A stretch of 64,000 nucleotides of DNA from a virus: positions 1 through 64,000 of IMG/VR virus record IMGVR_UViG_3300040809_000996. One strand, given 5' to 3'. A program made the translations under genes and the position numbers. Under the pieces are notes generated by a model, which saw only the letters and a list, made by a program, of their open reading frames with translations, had not been told where the DNA came from and did no database searches. Shown here one piece after another: positions 8,491 to 28,806 of the stretch (position 1 is its first letter; each line of letters starts with the position of its first letter).

Positions 8491-10778
8491 TACAAATAAC
8501 CTCCAGAATTAATTATAGATTGTTCAAATTCATCTAATCCTCTCATTATGCCTTTTTCAGGATCTGCTTTTTGTTTTGTATCAACTCCTTCTTGATTTCT
8601 TATCCTAATCATTTTTAACTTTTGTGTAAATTTTCCTTCGGCAAAACTATGTACAACTGATATAACCTGATATATACCACTATATGCAGCAGTATCTTCT
8701 AAGCCAACACCATTGAAATCCATAAATCCATTATCAGCGTTTGTATCAAACGGTGTTCTAAAATTTACAATAATATGCACTTCACTATCTTGATAATTCA
8801 TTGTTCCGTCCTCATTTACATTTATAAACTCTTGACTAGGTATTGCATGGAAATTACCATACCCACTATCAGTTATAAAATAAGGATCACCCCAAATAGT
8901 CATAGTTGTGTTTACTAAATCAACTGGACTATTAAGAAGAGCATCGTTAAAATCTCTTGCAACTCCTGTGCTAAGTTTGTCTGGTTGCCCTCCGCCTACT
9001 GATCCTGTTTGTGTTTTTGGACTTTCTTCTGTCGATTTACTTCCTGACGAAGAATCTGTAGCAATATTACCCGGCACAGGTGGTCTGTGTTTTTGTGTCG
9101 AGACACCTGCCCTTGCATCTTCCTCGTCACTTTTTATACTACCTTTATCTATTCCGCCAAACGGTTGGGCTGCAAGATAGAATGCTTTATTAAAATTAAT
9201 ATCAAATTCAAGTACATTATCATTTACACCTGTAAAAATATAATTATATTCTTTTGCACATTGCTTTCGTAATGCAGCCGTAATACTAGGTTCTGAACTA
9301 GACTGGTATCTACTTATATGGGCTTTATACGGTACAACCCTGTAAACATACAACCTTGGAGGTTTTCCTGTGTTAATTTCTTGCGGTGTATCTTTTAAAT
9401 TATAAACTTCTACATCGACCCTGAACCAAGGTATCATTCCATATCCGTCCGGCTTTGCATCTGCAATTGTGCGACCATAATCGCTTAAAATAACTACTTC
9501 TTCTATAATTTCTTGTATCGTTGTTCCGGTTTTAAAAGTTAAAGTAGATAAATTGTCACTTACCTGTATTTTTCCTCTTTCAAAAATTCCATCTTTGTCA
9601 TCTAATTCGGTAAATCTTGGTCTGCCAAAAGGTTTTTTTGTTCCATCTAAAAATGAATCAACAAGTTTTCCCTTACCAATTGCATTATTTGTTTCAGCTG
9701 ATTCTGCAAATGTTCTTGCTATTTCTCCTAGATTACTCCTATTAACTGTTACACCCAAAATTGTCTGATCTGGATTATCTAAATCATCAACAAATTCTCC
9801 TAAACTTGCAGTATCTTTTTCATATACAGAAGACTGATACAAATTAGTTGTTTTTAAAGCACCTGGACTTTTATAATATAATGATGTTGTTTTTGTTCCA
9901 TCATTATCAGCAACTTCTCCTACTTTAAATGTAGAATCTGTCGCTTCTTTAGGAAAAATTATTACATATTCATTTGCTGTTGTTATTTCGCCTTTGCGTC
10001 TACGCTCTTGCTCTCGAGAATTAATAATAGAATGCAAACTATCTGCTCCTGTTTGCAAAATTTCTTTTACTGTTCTACCAGTTAATTTTACATCAGCTTT
10101 TAATGCCTGTACTTCGTCTAATTGTCCTTGTTCAGTCCACGGTATTGCTTTTATATTGTAAACACTACCACCTTCGGTTACATTAAAATTAATATCAACA
10201 AATTTAAAGGGCAGCAACCTGCGTAGATGTTTTTTTTCTAAATAATTTCCATCACTGTCCCATCCTTTAAATTCAACAGTTAATAAAAAAGGAGCTTCGA
10301 GATAATTTGACATTTCTCCTCTCGCCTTTTGAGCTGCTACTTTTAATTCTTGTAAAAAAAGTCCCATACTATAAGGTTCAGTAACATTGAAAGAAATACT
10401 TGTTGCATTTGATTGTTTAGTTTTCCTATTATGAGTTATCAAACTATTAATTTCTACATTATCTATAAAATACTCAACTTTACCAAGTGCCGCTTCTGGA
10501 GGTGTATCAACACCGTCTGCACCTCCTCCAGATCTTAAAATAACTATCTTAGGATCCGATTTCCTATAAGTTTCATTTGGTGCAGATGTTTCCTCATCTG
10601 TTAAAGCACTTAAGGTAAAAATATAATTATAACTGACAAAATCATCTAATTCATTTGGAAAAGGTAATGTAGGCTGAGCAGTTAACCTATCGTCATTACT
10701 GTCAATATTAATTGTTGCGGCTGATTCACCATTTCCTCCTGTGTTATTTGAGACTACTTGTATATCTGTATCAGCCAT
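8490..10778 (-). CDS. Baseplate hub protein (gp27-like position)
   Basis: A 762-residue protein directly upstream of the spike gene; the two genes share a single base. Its C-terminal part contains IYQVISVVHSFAEGKFTQKL and KMIRIRNQE (about residues 700-735), a pattern seen at the end of hub proteins that hold the spike (T4 gp27, gpD-type hubs). Earlier blocks YNYIFTLSALTDEE and FLLTVEFKGWDSDGNYL also look like phage hub and tail proteins. A low-complexity Ser/Gly/Thr/Lys linker sits near residues 565-600. T4 gp27 is only about 390 residues, so this would be an expanded version. The hub assignment is inferred from gene order and the C-terminal pattern; other structural roles remain possible. 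Confidence 0.6.
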   Translation of the reverse strand: MADTDIQVVSNNTGGNGESAATINIDSNDDRLTAQPTLPFPNELDDFVSYNYIFTLSALTDEETSAPNETYRKSDPKIVILRSGGGADGVDTPPEAALGKVEYFIDNVEINSLITHNRKTKQSNATSISFNVTEPYSMGLFLQELKVAAQKARGEMSNYLEAPFLLTVEFKGWDSDGNYLEKKHLRRLLPFKFVDINFNVTEGGSVYNIKAIPWTEQGQLDEVQALKADVKLTGRTVKEILQTGADSLHSIINSREQERRRKGEITTANEYVIIFPKEATDSTFKVGEVADNDGTKTTSLYYKSPGALKTTNLYQSSVYEKDTASLGEFVDDLDNPDQTILGVTVNRSNLGEIARTFAESAETNNAIGKGKLVDSFLDGTKKPFGRPRFTELDDKDGIFERGKIQVSDNLSTLTFKTGTTIQEIIEEVVILSDYGRTIADAKPDGYGMIPWFRVDVEVYNLKDTPQEINTGKPPRLYVYRVVPYKAHISRYQSSSEPSITAALRKQCAKEYNYIFTGVNDNVLEFDINFNKAFYLAAQPFGGIDKGSIKSDEEDARAGVSTQKHRPPVPGNIATDSSSGSKSTEESPKTQTGSVGGGQPDKLSTGVARDFNDALLNSPVDLVNTTMTIWGDPYFITDSGYGNFHAIPSQEFINVNEDGTMNYQDSEVHIIVNFRTPFDTNADNGFMDFNGVGLEDTAAYSGIYQVISVVHSFAEGKFTQKLKMIRIRNQEGVDTKQKADPEKGIMRGLDEFEQSIINSGGYL

Positions 10779-21392: not shown

Positions 21393-23147
21393 ATGAGTTG
21401 GAAAAAATATTTTACACCAGTAAATAAAGCTGGGTCACGAACTGAATCGCAAAGTCCTATTAGCGGGAGAGAATTTTCAAATAAACCTGGACCAGCAAGA
21501 TCAAATTATAATTCGTTCTTACCAGATATCTATACTGGAGCTCCTAATCGTGTAGAAAGATATGGACAGTACAATACTATGGATATGGATTCAGAAGTAA
21601 ATGCTGCACTTGATATCCTTGCGGAATTTTGTACGCAAAAAAATAAAAAGAATGATACCCATTTTGAATTTAAATTTTATAAGAATGCTACAAACACCGA
21701 AGTACAAATCCTAAGCGAATACCTAAAACAATGGTATAAACTCCAAGAATTTGAAACGAGAATGTTTAGAATTGTAAGGAATACATTCAAATATGGCGAT
21801 ACTTTTTTCTTAAGAGATCCGGAAACAAAAAAATTATTTTATGTTGATCCTGCAAAAGTAAATCGTATAATAGTTAACGAAAGTGAAGGCAAAGAACCTG
21901 AGCAATACATCGTACAAGATGTAGCTTTAAATTTTAAAGATCTTGTTGCAACACAACCTTTGCAAACAAATGGTAGTGTAACTGGAGGCGGAACAGGTTA
22001 CTTAACAGGCGGTGCTAGGGGAATGGTTGGACCAACGAATCCAACCCAAGGTGGCTCGAGATTTATGCTTGAACAAGAAGAGATTGCAGTAAATGCAGAT
22101 CATATTCTACACATTAGTTTAAGCGAAGGATTAGATGAGAATTTTCCTTTCGGTAACAGTTTATTAGAAAGTATTTTCAAAGTTTACAAACAAAAAGAAT
22201 TACTAGAAGATGCAATTATAATTTACAGAGTGCAAAGAGCACCTGAGAGAAGAGTTTTTTATGTTGATGTGGGTAACATGCCTAGCCATCTTGCAATGCA
22301 GTTTGTTGAGCGTGTCAAAACGGAAATCCATCAGCGGAGAATACCATCCAAGACAGGAGGAGGAACAAACGTCATAGACAGTAGCTATAATCCTCTGTCA
22401 ATCAACGAAGATTACTTTTTTCCTCAAACTGCAGAAGGTAGAGGCAGTAAAGTTGAAACATTGCCAGGCGGAACTAATCTAGGCGAGATAGATGACCTAC
22501 GTTACTTTACAAATAAATTAGTAAGAGGCTTACGTATACCTAGCAGTTACCTACCCACCGGTGCTGACGATAGCAATGCTCAATACAACGACGGTAGAGT
22601 AGGCACAGCTTACATACAAGAATTGAGATTTAATACCTATTGCGAACGTTTACAAAACTTGTTGATAGAAGAATTTGATCAAGAATTTAAAAGATATTTA
22701 CTAGAAAAAGGTGTTAATATAGATACTGCAATGTTTGATATTAAGTTTTGTCCTCCACAAAATTTTGCAGCATATAGACAATCTGAACTTGATACACAAA
22801 GGATTGGTACGTTTGGACAAATACAAGCTATACCATTTATTGCTAATCGTTTTGCATTAAAAAGATATCTAGGATTAAGTGAAGAAGAAATTGCAGAAAA
22901 TGAACGGCTTTGGCGAGAAGAGAATGATGAAACACTACAACCCGGCGGAGGAGATGCGTCAGCTGAAATGCGTGGTGTAGGAATTAGCGGAGCAGGAATA
23001 TCTGCGGATATTGGCGGTGCTGAAGACATAGCAGATATCGAAGGAATGGAAGACGGAGGCGAAGGTGAACCTCCAACAAGTGCAACTGTGCCAGAACCAG
23101 GAGCAGAAACCGCACCAGCAGATACAGGAGCCGCACCAACGGTATAA
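21393..23147 (+). CDS. gp20: Portal vertex protein gp20
   Basis: gp20 forms the dodecameric portal through which DNA enters and leaves the capsid. This 584-residue protein has the gp20 blocks YNSFLPDIYTGAPNRVERYG and DMDSEVNAALDILAEFCTQ near residues 40-85, the central DAIIIYRVQRAPERRVFYVD near 275-295 and KLVRGLRIPSSYLPTGADDS near 370. T4 gp20 is 524 residues. The C-terminus is extended by a Gly/Ala/Glu-rich tail of about 60 residues. Order (portal, core proteins, protease, scaffold, capsid) is the T4 order. The stop codon lies within a perfect late-promoter octamer. Confidence 0.95.
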   Translation: MSWKKYFTPVNKAGSRTESQSPISGREFSNKPGPARSNYNSFLPDIYTGAPNRVERYGQYNTMDMDSEVNAALDILAEFCTQKNKKNDTHFEFKFYKNATNTEVQILSEYLKQWYKLQEFETRMFRIVRNTFKYGDTFFLRDPETKKLFYVDPAKVNRIIVNESEGKEPEQYIVQDVALNFKDLVATQPLQTNGSVTGGGTGYLTGGARGMVGPTNPTQGGSRFMLEQEEIAVNADHILHISLSEGLDENFPFGNSLLESIFKVYKQKELLEDAIIIYRVQRAPERRVFYVDVGNMPSHLAMQFVERVKTEIHQRRIPSKTGGGTNVIDSSYNPLSINEDYFFPQTAEGRGSKVETLPGGTNLGEIDDLRYFTNKLVRGLRIPSSYLPTGADDSNAQYNDGRVGTAYIQELRFNTYCERLQNLLIEEFDQEFKRYLLEKGVNIDTAMFDIKFCPPQNFAAYRQSELDTQRIGTFGQIQAIPFIANRFALKRYLGLSEEEIAENERLWREENDETLQPGGGDASAEMRGVGISGAGISADIGGAEDIADIEGMEDGGEGEPPTSATVPEPGAETAPADTGAAPTV

Positions 23148-23150
23148 ATA
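23143..23150 (+). promoter_or_regulatory. Late-promoter box overlapping the gp20 stop codon
   Basis: An exact TATAAATA followed by C spans the gp20 stop (23145-23147). The next ATG is at 23155, so initiation the usual distance downstream would begin at or just past that start; the transcript would serve later genes of the head block. It may also be chance. Confidence 0.4.
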
Positions 23151-23154
23151 CAGT

Positions 23155-23412
23155 ATGATACTACGTGAATTATTTTATTATGACAAAGAAACCATGGAGC
23201 CTAACGAAGACGATAGGTACGAACCGCAGTATGACAAATCTGTTGTTGATCTAGATGACACTAGAAAAACAAGATTAACACTTAAACAGATAAATCGTGC
23301 TAGGAAAGCAGCAGAACTCCATGATAAAGAAAAGGCTAATGAGATTGAATTTGTAAGACAAATGTACGGAATGGCTGCCCAAGCGGCTGCAGCAGGCGAA
23401 GGGTTAGTGTGA
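23155..23412 (+). CDS. Small prohead-core-position protein (between gp20 and gp21)
   Basis: An 85-residue protein beginning MILRELFYYDKETMEPNEDD, then RKTRLTLKQINRARKAAELH, and ending in an Ala/Gly-rich tail. The start at 23155 is chosen because the in-frame region further upstream lies inside gp20 and encodes an unlikely Gln/Pro-rich stretch. In T4 the genes 67 and 68, small prohead core proteins, occupy this place between portal and protease. I recall similar short proteins here in marine T4-like phages, but I do not recognise similarity to T4 gp67 or gp68, so the core role is inferred from position. Its stop overlaps the GTG start of the next gene. Confidence 0.7.
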   Translation: MILRELFYYDKETMEPNEDDRYEPQYDKSVVDLDDTRKTRLTLKQINRARKAAELHDKEKANEIEFVRQMYGMAAQAAAAGEGLV

Positions 23413-24118
23413 AAATTGATAAATCATTATACACTAAAGAAGAATTTAAACTCATAAGAGAACAACGTAGAATAGCAAAAAATCAAAAAAAAAAAGAAAT
23501 TTTTTTATAAAACCATCTCAAAATAAGACCCATCAAGTTGCTTTTGTATTAGGTAACGGAAACTCTAGGCGAAATATTGTATTAGAAGAACTTTCAAATG
23601 TAGGCGTTATCTATGGTTGTAATGCGTTGTATAGAGAATTTTCGCCTGAGTATCTAGTAGCTGTTGATGCAAAAATGATTCTAGAAATTAACAAATCAGG
23701 TTATCAAAATAAACATGAAGTTTGGACTAATCCTAATAGGGCATACGAAAGAATGAATAATTTTAATTTTTTTCAACCAAGCAAAGGATGGAGTAGTGGT
23801 CCTACCGCATTATGGTTAGCAGTTCAACATAAATGGAAAGAAATATTTATATTAGGGTTTGACTATAAAGGATTAGACAACGGTAAAAAATTTAATAATA
23901 TTTACGCTAATACTCCTAACTACAAAAAAAGTTCAGATAGTGCTACATTTTTTGGTAACTGGGCAAGACAAACAAAAACTGTAATAAAAGAAAACCCTGA
24001 TGTCATCTTTAAAAGGGTTATTGATAAAGGTAACTATACTCCCGAAGACTTAGAAAAATTAGATAATTTTCAAAACGTAGATAAAGAATTTTTTAAAAAA
24101 ACATATAGCTTAACATAA
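23409..24118 (+). CDS. Rossmann-like protein of unknown function, read through an apparent -1 frameshift
   Basis: A GTG at 23409 overlaps the previous stop (GTGA) and opens a 33-codon frame, MKIDKSLYTKEEFKLIREQR and on to a TAA at 23508. The rest of the protein continues in the -1 frame without any ATG for 150 bases: AFVLGNGNSRRNIVLEELSN, VGVIYGCNALYREFSPEYLV, then GPTALWLAVQHKWKEIFILG. The G-N-G-x-S-R loop and the later ILGFDYKG strand suggest a nucleotide-binding fold like that of DUF115/MAF-type glycosyltransferases (tentative). Read as one product it has about 236 residues. A TTG at 23627 would drop the conserved glycine loop and is unlikely to be the true start. The junction lies at T TTT TTA before TAA. 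It may be programmed, a homopolymer error or a real mutation. Confidence 0.55.
23501..23507 (+). other. Candidate -1 ribosomal frameshift site
   Basis: In the frame begun at 23409 the codons are GAA ATT TTT TTA TAA. T TTT TTA is the classic U UUU UUA slippery heptamer, placed immediately before an in-frame stop, and a -1 slip enters exactly the frame that encodes the downstream domain. An A11 run (23485-23495) lies just upstream, so a lost base there is an equally direct explanation. Confidence 0.5.
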
Positions 24119-24215: not shown

Positions 24216-25400
24216 ATGGCACAAAAAAGAACAAGAAAACAAGTAAAAGAAAGCGTTAACAAAAAAGTTGCGCCTAAAAAGAAAATAAATGAAAGCCGAG
24301 ATAAATTCCAGCAAATGCTAGAATATCTTGTAAACGAAGATACTGCAAAAGCAGAAGATCTATTCCATGAGATTGTAGTAGAAAAATCAAGACAAATTTA
24401 TGAAAATTTGTTACAAGAAGAGCAAGACGAAGAAGTTGACGAATCAGACGACGAAGAAGTTGATGAATCAGACGACGAAGAAGTTGACGAATCAGACGAC
24501 GAAGAAGTTGATGAATCAGACGACGACGAATTAGACGAATCAAAAGAAGAAGACGACGAAGAAGTCGATGAATCAGACGACGAAGAAGTTGACGAATCAG
24601 ACGACGAAGAAGTTGATGAAAACTTTAATTTAGACGAATTTGAAGTTGAAGGCGAACCAGAAATGGACATGGACATGGGAATGATGGGCGGAGACGCAGG
24701 CGATGACATGGAAATGGACATGGATGACGAAGAAGGCGATATGGATATGGATGCTGACATGGACGGTGACGAACCTGTAACACAAGATGATATTAAAGAT
24801 CTTGAAGCAGAATTAGCCGATCTTAAAGCAGAGTTTGAGCAAATGCTAGCCGGCGAAGAAGGTGAAATGGGCATGGATGACGAAGAAGGCGACATGGATA
24901 TGGGCGACGAAGAAGGCGACATGGATATGGGCGACGAAGAAGGCGACATGGATATGGGCGACGAAGAAGAGGAAATGCCTGAAGAAAATTTTAACTATGA
25001 GTCAAGAAAAAACTTGAGTCAAGCAGAACTTATGCGAGAATATGTTAATAAAGTAGGCGGCGAGCAATATCATCAATATGGCAAAATGGGCGACAATGGT
25101 ACAAATACAAAGTCACCAGTAGCTGGAAAAAATGATATGGGTGGTACTACAGCAAACATATTAAAAGGCGGAACAGAGTCAGGTGTTGAAGCGAATAAAG
25201 GTAATTTACATGGTAACCCAGTAAGTGATCAAAATCCAAAAGACATGAATACAGGTAATGTTAATGTACCAGGAAATAAAAAAGCTCCGGCAATGAAAGC
25301 AAACTCTACAGGACATGGTGCTGAAAGAAAAGGTAAACCAGAGTCATCAGACAAAGGTGCCGGAAGCCCATTAAACGGTGCTCCAAAGAGAGCAAAATAA
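24216..25400 (+). CDS. Acidic, repeat-rich prohead core protein candidate
   Basis: A 394-residue protein between portal and protease genes. The N-terminus is basic; residues 30-70 form a helical block, FQQMLEYLVNEDTAKAEDLF followed by HEIVVEKSRQIYENLL, which looks like a core-protein domain. Residues about 70-135 are seven imperfect copies of the octapeptide DDEEVDES; residues 140-260 are Met/Asp/Glu-rich, with three copies of a nine-residue GDEEGDMDM unit. The C-terminal 120 residues are Gly/Asn/Lys-rich, with YVNKVGGEQYHQYGKMGDNG. Strong acidity, Met-rich helices and location fit an internal prohead core protein that is removed by gp21. The function is inferred; copy number of the repeats may vary between strains. 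Confidence 0.65.
   Translation: MAQKRTRKQVKESVNKKVAPKKKINESRDKFQQMLEYLVNEDTAKAEDLFHEIVVEKSRQIYENLLQEEQDEEVDESDDEEVDESDDEEVDESDDEEVDESDDDELDESKEEDDEEVDESDDEEVDESDDEEVDENFNLDEFEVEGEPEMDMDMGMMGGDAGDDMEMDMDDEEGDMDMDADMDGDEPVTQDDIKDLEAELADLKAEFEQMLAGEEGEMGMDDEEGDMDMGDEEGDMDMGDEEGDMDMGDEEEEMPEENFNYESRKNLSQAELMREYVNKVGGEQYHQYGKMGDNGTNTKSPVAGKNDMGGTTANILKGGTESGVEANKGNLHGNPVSDQNPKDMNTGNVNVPGNKKAPAMKANSTGHGAERKGKPESSDKGAGSPLNGAPKRAK
24426..24620 (+). repeat. In-frame 24-base tandem repeat encoding DDEEVDES
   Basis: About seven copies of a 24-base unit (GACGACGAAGAAGTTGAYGA plus ATCA), with a degenerate spacer near 24520-24560 where the unit becomes DDDELDES and KEEDDEEVDES. Copies differ mainly by GAC/GAT in one codon. 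It lies wholly inside the core protein gene. Confidence 0.9.
24876..24970 (+). repeat. In-frame 27-base tandem repeat encoding GDEEGDMDM
   Basis: Three nearly identical 27-base units followed by a partial unit, with unit core GGCGACGAAGAAGGCGACAT. The repeats are preceded by a diverged copy (MDDEEGDMDM). Near-identity suggests recent expansion by slippage. Confidence 0.85.
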
Positions 25401-28370: not shown

Positions 28371-28408
28371 AAAAGCTCTATAAATATTTTTATAGAGCTT
28401 TTTTTTTG
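28371..28408 (+). terminator. Rho-independent terminator after gp23
   Basis: GCTCTATAAA (28375-28384) pairs with TTTATAGAGC (28389-28398) around a TATT loop. Flanking A4 and T tracts extend the stem to 14 pairs, and a T run continues to about 28408. It directly follows the highly expressed capsid gene. The stem also contains a perfect late-promoter octamer. Confidence 0.88.
28379..28386 (+). promoter_or_regulatory. Late promoter embedded in the gp23 terminator
   Basis: TATAAATA is formed by the 5' arm and loop of the terminator hairpin, 33 bases before the iscU ATG. It would restart transcription for iscU just where gp23 transcription ends. Confidence 0.55.
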
Positions 28409-28419
28409 GAGAAAAAACC

Positions 28420-28806
28420 ATGGCATATAATGATGCAGTATTAGAACATTACAACAATCCTAAAAACGTAGGCAGTTTAGACAAATCAGCAGCAGATGTT
28501 GGTACAGGGTTAGTTGGTGCACCGGAATGCGGTGACGTTATGAAATTACAAATTCGTGTAGAAGATGAACGTATTGTTGATGCAAAATTTAAGACATTTG
28601 GTTGTGGATCAGCTATTGCAAGCAGTAGTTTAGCAACAGAATGGGTAAAGGGCAAGACAATAAACGAAGCTTTTGAAATAAAAAATACAGAAATAGTAGA
28701 AGAACTAGCACTTCCTCCAGTAAAAATCCATTGTTCAGTTTTAGCAGAAGATGCAATTAAAGCAGCAATAAAAGATTACAGGAGTAAACAATGCACAAAA
28801 AATTAG
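28420..28806 (+). CDS. iscU: Iron-sulfur cluster assembly scaffold protein IscU
   Basis: IscU receives sulfur from IscS and iron, builds a [2Fe-2S] cluster and passes it on with help from HscA/HscB. The 128 residues equal the usual IscU length. All functional residues are present: Cys37 in APECGDVMK with Asp39 beside it, Cys62 in FGCGSAIASSS, and His104-Cys105 in the ALPPVKIHCSVLAEDAI block, which includes the LPPVK motif that the chaperone HscA recognises. It lies between the capsid gene and virion genes, behind its own late promoter and a GGAG ribosome site. Nothing suggests decay. It is a host-derived auxiliary gene, probably supporting Fe-S enzymes late in infection. Confidence 0.95.
   Translation: MAYNDAVLEHYNNPKNVGSLDKSAADVGTGLVGAPECGDVMKLQIRVEDERIVDAKFKTFGCGSAIASSSLATEWVKGKTINEAFEIKNTEIVEELALPPVKIHCSVLAEDAIKAAIKDYRSKQCTKN

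Follow-up and report, generated by a model that had tools for sequence, protein, structure and literature searches.

The phage lambda tail chaperone G-GT is made by -1 ribosomal frameshifting. Bacterial RNA polymerase itself also inserts nucleotides on A/T runs; 80% of such insertions are of a single nucleotide, and they rise exponentially with run length (PMC5574713). The T6SS gene tssM1 of Citrobacter rodentium carries an A11 tract at which transcriptional slippage, established by cDNA mass measurement, gives ~20-25% frame-restored product (PMC4256274). Frames broken at poly-A in the endosymbionts Buchnera and Blochmannia are corrected by RNA polymerase slippage in 12-50% of transcripts (PMC5009743), and Shigella mxiE and spa13 and Thermus dnaX give extended or truncated products at homopolymeric A (or T) tracts (PMC5009743, PMC4256274). 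Our non-exhaustive search of the literature found no phage example of poly-A transcriptional slippage, and nothing direct on pelagiphage frameshifting or on homopolymer phase variation in phages.

The gene described here lies on a virus contig of 144,118 bases (IMG/VR record IMGVR_UViG_3300040809_000996), the first 64,000 nucleotides of which make up the analyzed stretch, hereafter the window. It is flanked on one side by the portal gene and on the other by those for prohead core, protease, scaffold, and major head proteins, in a marine, T4-like phage. Like tssM1, it has A11 shortly before a stop, a frame that one extra A restores, two predicted length variants, and no ribosomal stimulators nearby. 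Experiments demonstrated slippage in tssM1 (cDNA mass measurement, Western blot, and reporters), whereas the phage gene is known from sequence alone, and its tract lies near the 5' end, leaving a short product of just 33 residues. With Buchnera and Blochmannia it shares an AT-rich genome and a frame broken at long poly-A, but those are reduced endosymbiont genomes and this is a recombining marine phage under strong purifying selection. In contrast to mxiE, spa13, and dnaX, the frame state of the phage gene varies between close relatives. The likeness to lambda G-GT, a phage gene with short and -1 fused products, ends with the absence of a conserved heptamer or structure and a product that is not a tail chaperone. 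The features are as follows, in window coordinates.

21393..23147, + strand: portal protein gene (gp20-like), context
23143..23150, + strand: T4 late-promoter-like octamer, TATAAATA, 5' of the pair formed by phrog_13986 and the split gene
23155..23412, + strand: small upstream gene (phrog_13986), overlapping the start of the split gene
23409..23510, + strand: 0-frame open reading frame of 33 codons with a GTG start, encoding a conserved basic N-terminus (KIDKSxYTKEE...REQRR...KKK)
23471..23510, + strand: overlap of the 0 and -1 frames, the obligatory shift region, bounded by TAG 23468-23470 and TAA 23508-23510
23485..23495, + strand: A11 tract, the proposed slippage site, from tract-length comparison across homologues
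23500..23506, + strand: T7 with the T TTT TTA heptamer, the slip site proposed earlier, not conserved
23540..24118, + strand: conserved domain in the -1 frame (AFVLGNGNSRRN...), distantly CST-I/GT42 sialyltransferase-like, dN/dS 0.055-0.165
24216..25400, + strand: acidic repeat protein at the position of the T4 gp67 prohead core protein, context

The preceding frame ends in a TGA that overlaps the GTG start at 23409 (GTGTGA), and the 0 frame translates as MKIDKSLYTKEEFKLIREQRRIAKNQKKKEIFL before its TAA at 23508-23510. The -1 frame opens at 23471, after the TAG at 23468-23470, and runs to TAA 24116-24118; because the one frame opens at 23471 and the other closes at 23510, any shift must fall within this interval, which contains both A11 and T7. 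The domain begins AFVLGNGNSRR at 23540, and the earliest ATG, GTG, or TTG of its frame is a TTG at 23627, which falls ~29 residues into the conserved core. No other homopolymer in the 144 kb of the record is as long as A11. A sequence-only reading of this locus had described a GTG-started 33-codon frame that overlaps the previous stop and a -1 domain frame lacking a start of its own, from which it proposed that the two frames are one gene yielding a short peptide and, after a -1 shift, a ~236-residue fusion. The frame geometry is as it described.

Homologues show that this is a single gene. Using the domain, the upstream gene, and a family alignment as queries against viral contigs, we recovered several hundred homologous loci (here labeled L and a number), and in ~193 distinct loci an N-terminus resembling KIDKSxYTKxEWxxIREQRR and the domain share one frame. 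Because these homologues encode both parts in a single frame, the 33-codon frame can be assigned as the N-terminus of the same gene as the domain, the full product of which needs a -1 shift here. The homologue comparison that the sequence-only reading had proposed thus favors it as to gene structure, most loci being single-frame fusions and a minority of phages carrying an allele of the domain alone that starts at an ATG or TTG of its own, but not as to its slip heptamer, which is not conserved. The cultured pelagiphages HTVC008M and Mosig have distant copies only, in a different gene context, and a search of cellular genomes matched just four metagenome-bin contigs.

Splitting of the frame follows the length of the A-run. 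Distinct loci were grouped according to the longest stretch of A's separating N-terminus from domain: stretches of 4 to 8 gave 187 loci in frame and none split at the junction, and runs of at least 9 gave 8 split loci against 6 in frame (L002, L004, L008, L178, L211, and L385). One apparent split locus with a short run, L168, was set aside as a false N-terminus call (score 14.6). The split loci are the window (A11, -1), L006, L007, and L009 (A10, -1), L003 (A10, +1), and L186, L187, and L189 (A9, -1); an A-run of 9-11 is common to all of them, seven of the eight require a -1 shift, and most need exactly one extra base, the insertion that RNA polymerase makes most often on A/T runs. Of the in-frame loci, L002 has A10, and L004, L008, and L178 have A9. 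L186, L187, and L189 represent one population from three samples (no more than 2 differences in 590 bases, at least 99.7% identity), an unrelated lineage that split independently. Counted once, they leave 6 split lineages among the 12 with runs of at least 9, compared with 0 of 187 at runs of 8 or fewer (Fisher p ~1e-8, kinship ignored). The 111-domain tree implies no fewer than four transitions into the split state and groups L006, L007, and L009, each with A10 in the -1 state, in a single supported clade (SH-aLRT 97). The -1 linkers differ by substitutions and by 3 nt in length and are stop-free. From these comparisons the frame looks loosely held at runs of at least 9 and strictly held at shorter runs.

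The out-of-frame domain is under strong purifying selection, unless the breaks are very recent or the tract switches frequently. For the domain, two split loci, the window and L003, give a dN/dS of 0.076, and L006 gives 0.081 against L007 and against L009 (dS ~0.66); the compared pairs span 0.055-0.165, a range that argues against a pseudogene. With dN/dS at ~0.08, the split domain is presumably translated.

We propose that RNA polymerase slippage on A11 restores the frame, giving a short peptide and a fused protein, and we consider this the probable explanation. Accepting it moves the putative slip site from T7 to A11. All split members share an A-run of 9-11, which is most simply explained by slippage on the poly-A tract during transcription. 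The run is uninterrupted, at least ~9 long, and placed at the frame junction in the window and its split relatives, and the frame downstream of it is conserved, under selection, and without its own start. The locus would thus be a single gene in which a linker with the poly-A tract connects a basic N-terminal segment to a glycosyltransferase-like domain. RNA polymerase would slip on A11 and add extra A's in a fraction of transcripts; unslipped mRNA would give the 33-residue peptide and mRNA with one extra A the ~236-residue fusion, each presumably in useful amounts. Because slipped transcripts would restore the frame whatever the DNA reads, the DNA frame would be only loosely constrained in long-tract phages. 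L003 must shift the other way, +1, and so gain two A's; this speaks for transcript heterogeneity, since a heterogeneous transcript pool allows +1 and a -1 heptamer does not. As a counterpoint, the transcripts that L003 depends on would be of a rarer class, and the constant A10 of three diverged phages suggests some remaining constraint on the frame.

The chief alternative, ribosomal slippage at these same A's, we regard as unlikely. Programmed -1 frameshifting on the A-run or on T TTT TTA would likewise give a short peptide and a fusion, seven of the eight split loci require -1, and the 0-frame stop lies less than ~20 bases after the tract. In-phase X XXY YYZ heptamers in the window are T TTT TTA and A AAA AAA, and the tract of L006, L007, and L009 also forms A AAA AAG in the right phase, which counts against a purely transcriptional account, A_AAA_AAG being a strong bacterial ribosomal slip site. 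Yet the splits track uninterrupted runs of at least 9, many unsplit relatives carry 7 or 8 A's, and the split loci share A heptamers just as part of those longer runs; L003, moreover, needs +1. T TTT TTA, the slip site of the sequence-only reading, fails the comparison: the other -1 relatives (L006, L007, L009, and L186) lack it, and L003 has it but would be led by it into a dead frame. The record contains 188 copies of TTTTTTA, both strands counted, so that a copy before a stop is unremarkable alone; TTTTTTATA[AG] has 10 copies on both strands. That reading had also suggested looking for a stimulatory structure downstream, and none was found in the window, where the 80 nt after the tract fold no better than shuffled sequences (z 0.60 and 0.88). 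L003 and L006 do no better, L002 is about average, L007 reaches z -0.9, and only L009 (z -1.7) hints at a weak stem-loop. No Shine-Dalgarno-like stimulator was seen upstream of the tract in the window. The geometry of a programmed -1 shift, an in-phase heptamer ahead of a -1 domain frame, is thus present, but the heptamer is unconserved and unaccompanied by a stimulatory structure.

Phase variation, the second rival, is in our estimate less probable again. The length of the DNA tract itself would change, turning the fused protein on and off, and the deposited genomes would be mostly OFF variants. Glycosyltransferase genes are often phase-variable in bacteria, and close relatives here do differ in tract or frame: L002 has A10 in frame, the window A11, L003 A10, and L084 A15. 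Two observations look instead like stability, namely that the three diverged phages hold their A10 at the same -1 state and that A9 is constant in three samples of the L186 population. A run of A11 would, in addition, slip in transcripts and so blunt the OFF state.

Sequencing or assembly error in the homopolymer, with a true gene in a single frame, is very improbable. Homopolymers are error-prone, and stray breaks do occur among these contigs: L002 carries an unrelated one-base deletion in its small upstream gene (AATGTAGG instead of AATGTACGG), which breaks the C-terminus, and the frame of L223 is broken at ~2080 inside the domain, away from any homopolymer of at least 9, so a low background of frame breaks or errors exists. 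The contig of L084, 95% identical upstream, terminates 14 bases after an A15 at the homologous tract (8988-9002), perhaps an assembly break from length heterogeneity. Against a general homopolymer error, all 6 other A9-A10 coding runs of the window's record are in frame, as are one such run in L082 and an A18 in L021 (a stricter version of this control left too few runs to be useful), and the identical split state recurs in independent samples (L006, L007, and L009; and L186, L187, and L189 at 99.7% identity or more). Least plausible is a pair of coupled genes with the domain re-initiated after the stop of the short frame, which would suit the L186, L187, and L189 population, where a GTG in the domain frame overlaps the TGA stop, and recalls the domain-only alleles of other phages, but in the window, L006, L007, and L009 the overlap offers ATA alone, a very poor start, L003 offers none, and an own start for the domain is rejected in the window by the lack of any ATG, GTG, or TTG ahead of the conserved core.

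The domain is distantly CST-I/GT42 sialyltransferase-like, and we do not call it a member. Profile comparison matched phrog_4603 (alpha-2,3-sialyltransferase) in 72 of 75 members (best E 6.4e-8; window domain 1.6e-4). Matches to PF06002 (CST-I) were weak, in 36 of 75 members (best E 4.7e-5), and among ten members tested the best score, 18.4 bits, was below the curated cut-off of 25; the window protein had no match in Pfam. Against PDB chains, the profile reached no better than E 0.22 to a sialyltransferase.

Alleles of this domain have evidently been exchanged between phages by recombination, with a junction close to the tract. The window shares 93-98% identity with L006, L007, and L009 in the small upstream gene and 88-97% in the N-terminus, against 72-74% in the domain; identity falls at or just after the A-tract and recovers to ~90% or above over much of the head genes that follow. 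L178 combines a matching upstream region with a further, different domain allele. We suggest tentatively, as a doubtful extension of the slippage proposal, that the poly-A tract may act as a frame-tolerant hinge for domain-allele swaps, transcript slippage supplying all frames and the 33-residue basic peptide being a product in its own right. That the tract promotes the exchange is speculation.

If transcriptional slippage on A11 is borne out, poly-A recoding would operate in marine T4-like phages and would have arisen several times in one gene family, with the in-frame relatives serving as natural controls. Our data suggest that a long A-tract loosens the constraint on frame at the junction where phages exchange domain alleles. 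They also carry a warning, as annotation pipelines split or discard such genes.

Several minor observations were made at and around the locus. Late-promoter-like octamers are no commoner than chance in the window, which leaves the element at 23143..23150 weak; a second TATAAATA occurs at 28379 with a NifU/IscU-like Fe-S scaffold gene (phrog_8429, 28420-28806) directly 3' of the major head gene. The product of the gene at 24216-25400, for which a PHROG match was not found, has long acidic repeats (EEVDESDD, GDMDMGDEE). The in-frame A18 of L021 (3314) lies inside the glycosyltransferase-like domain. At 17350 of L092 (record 81350), on the minus strand, an A10 stands in frame only a few codons into a 274-codon open reading frame, another possible slippage site.
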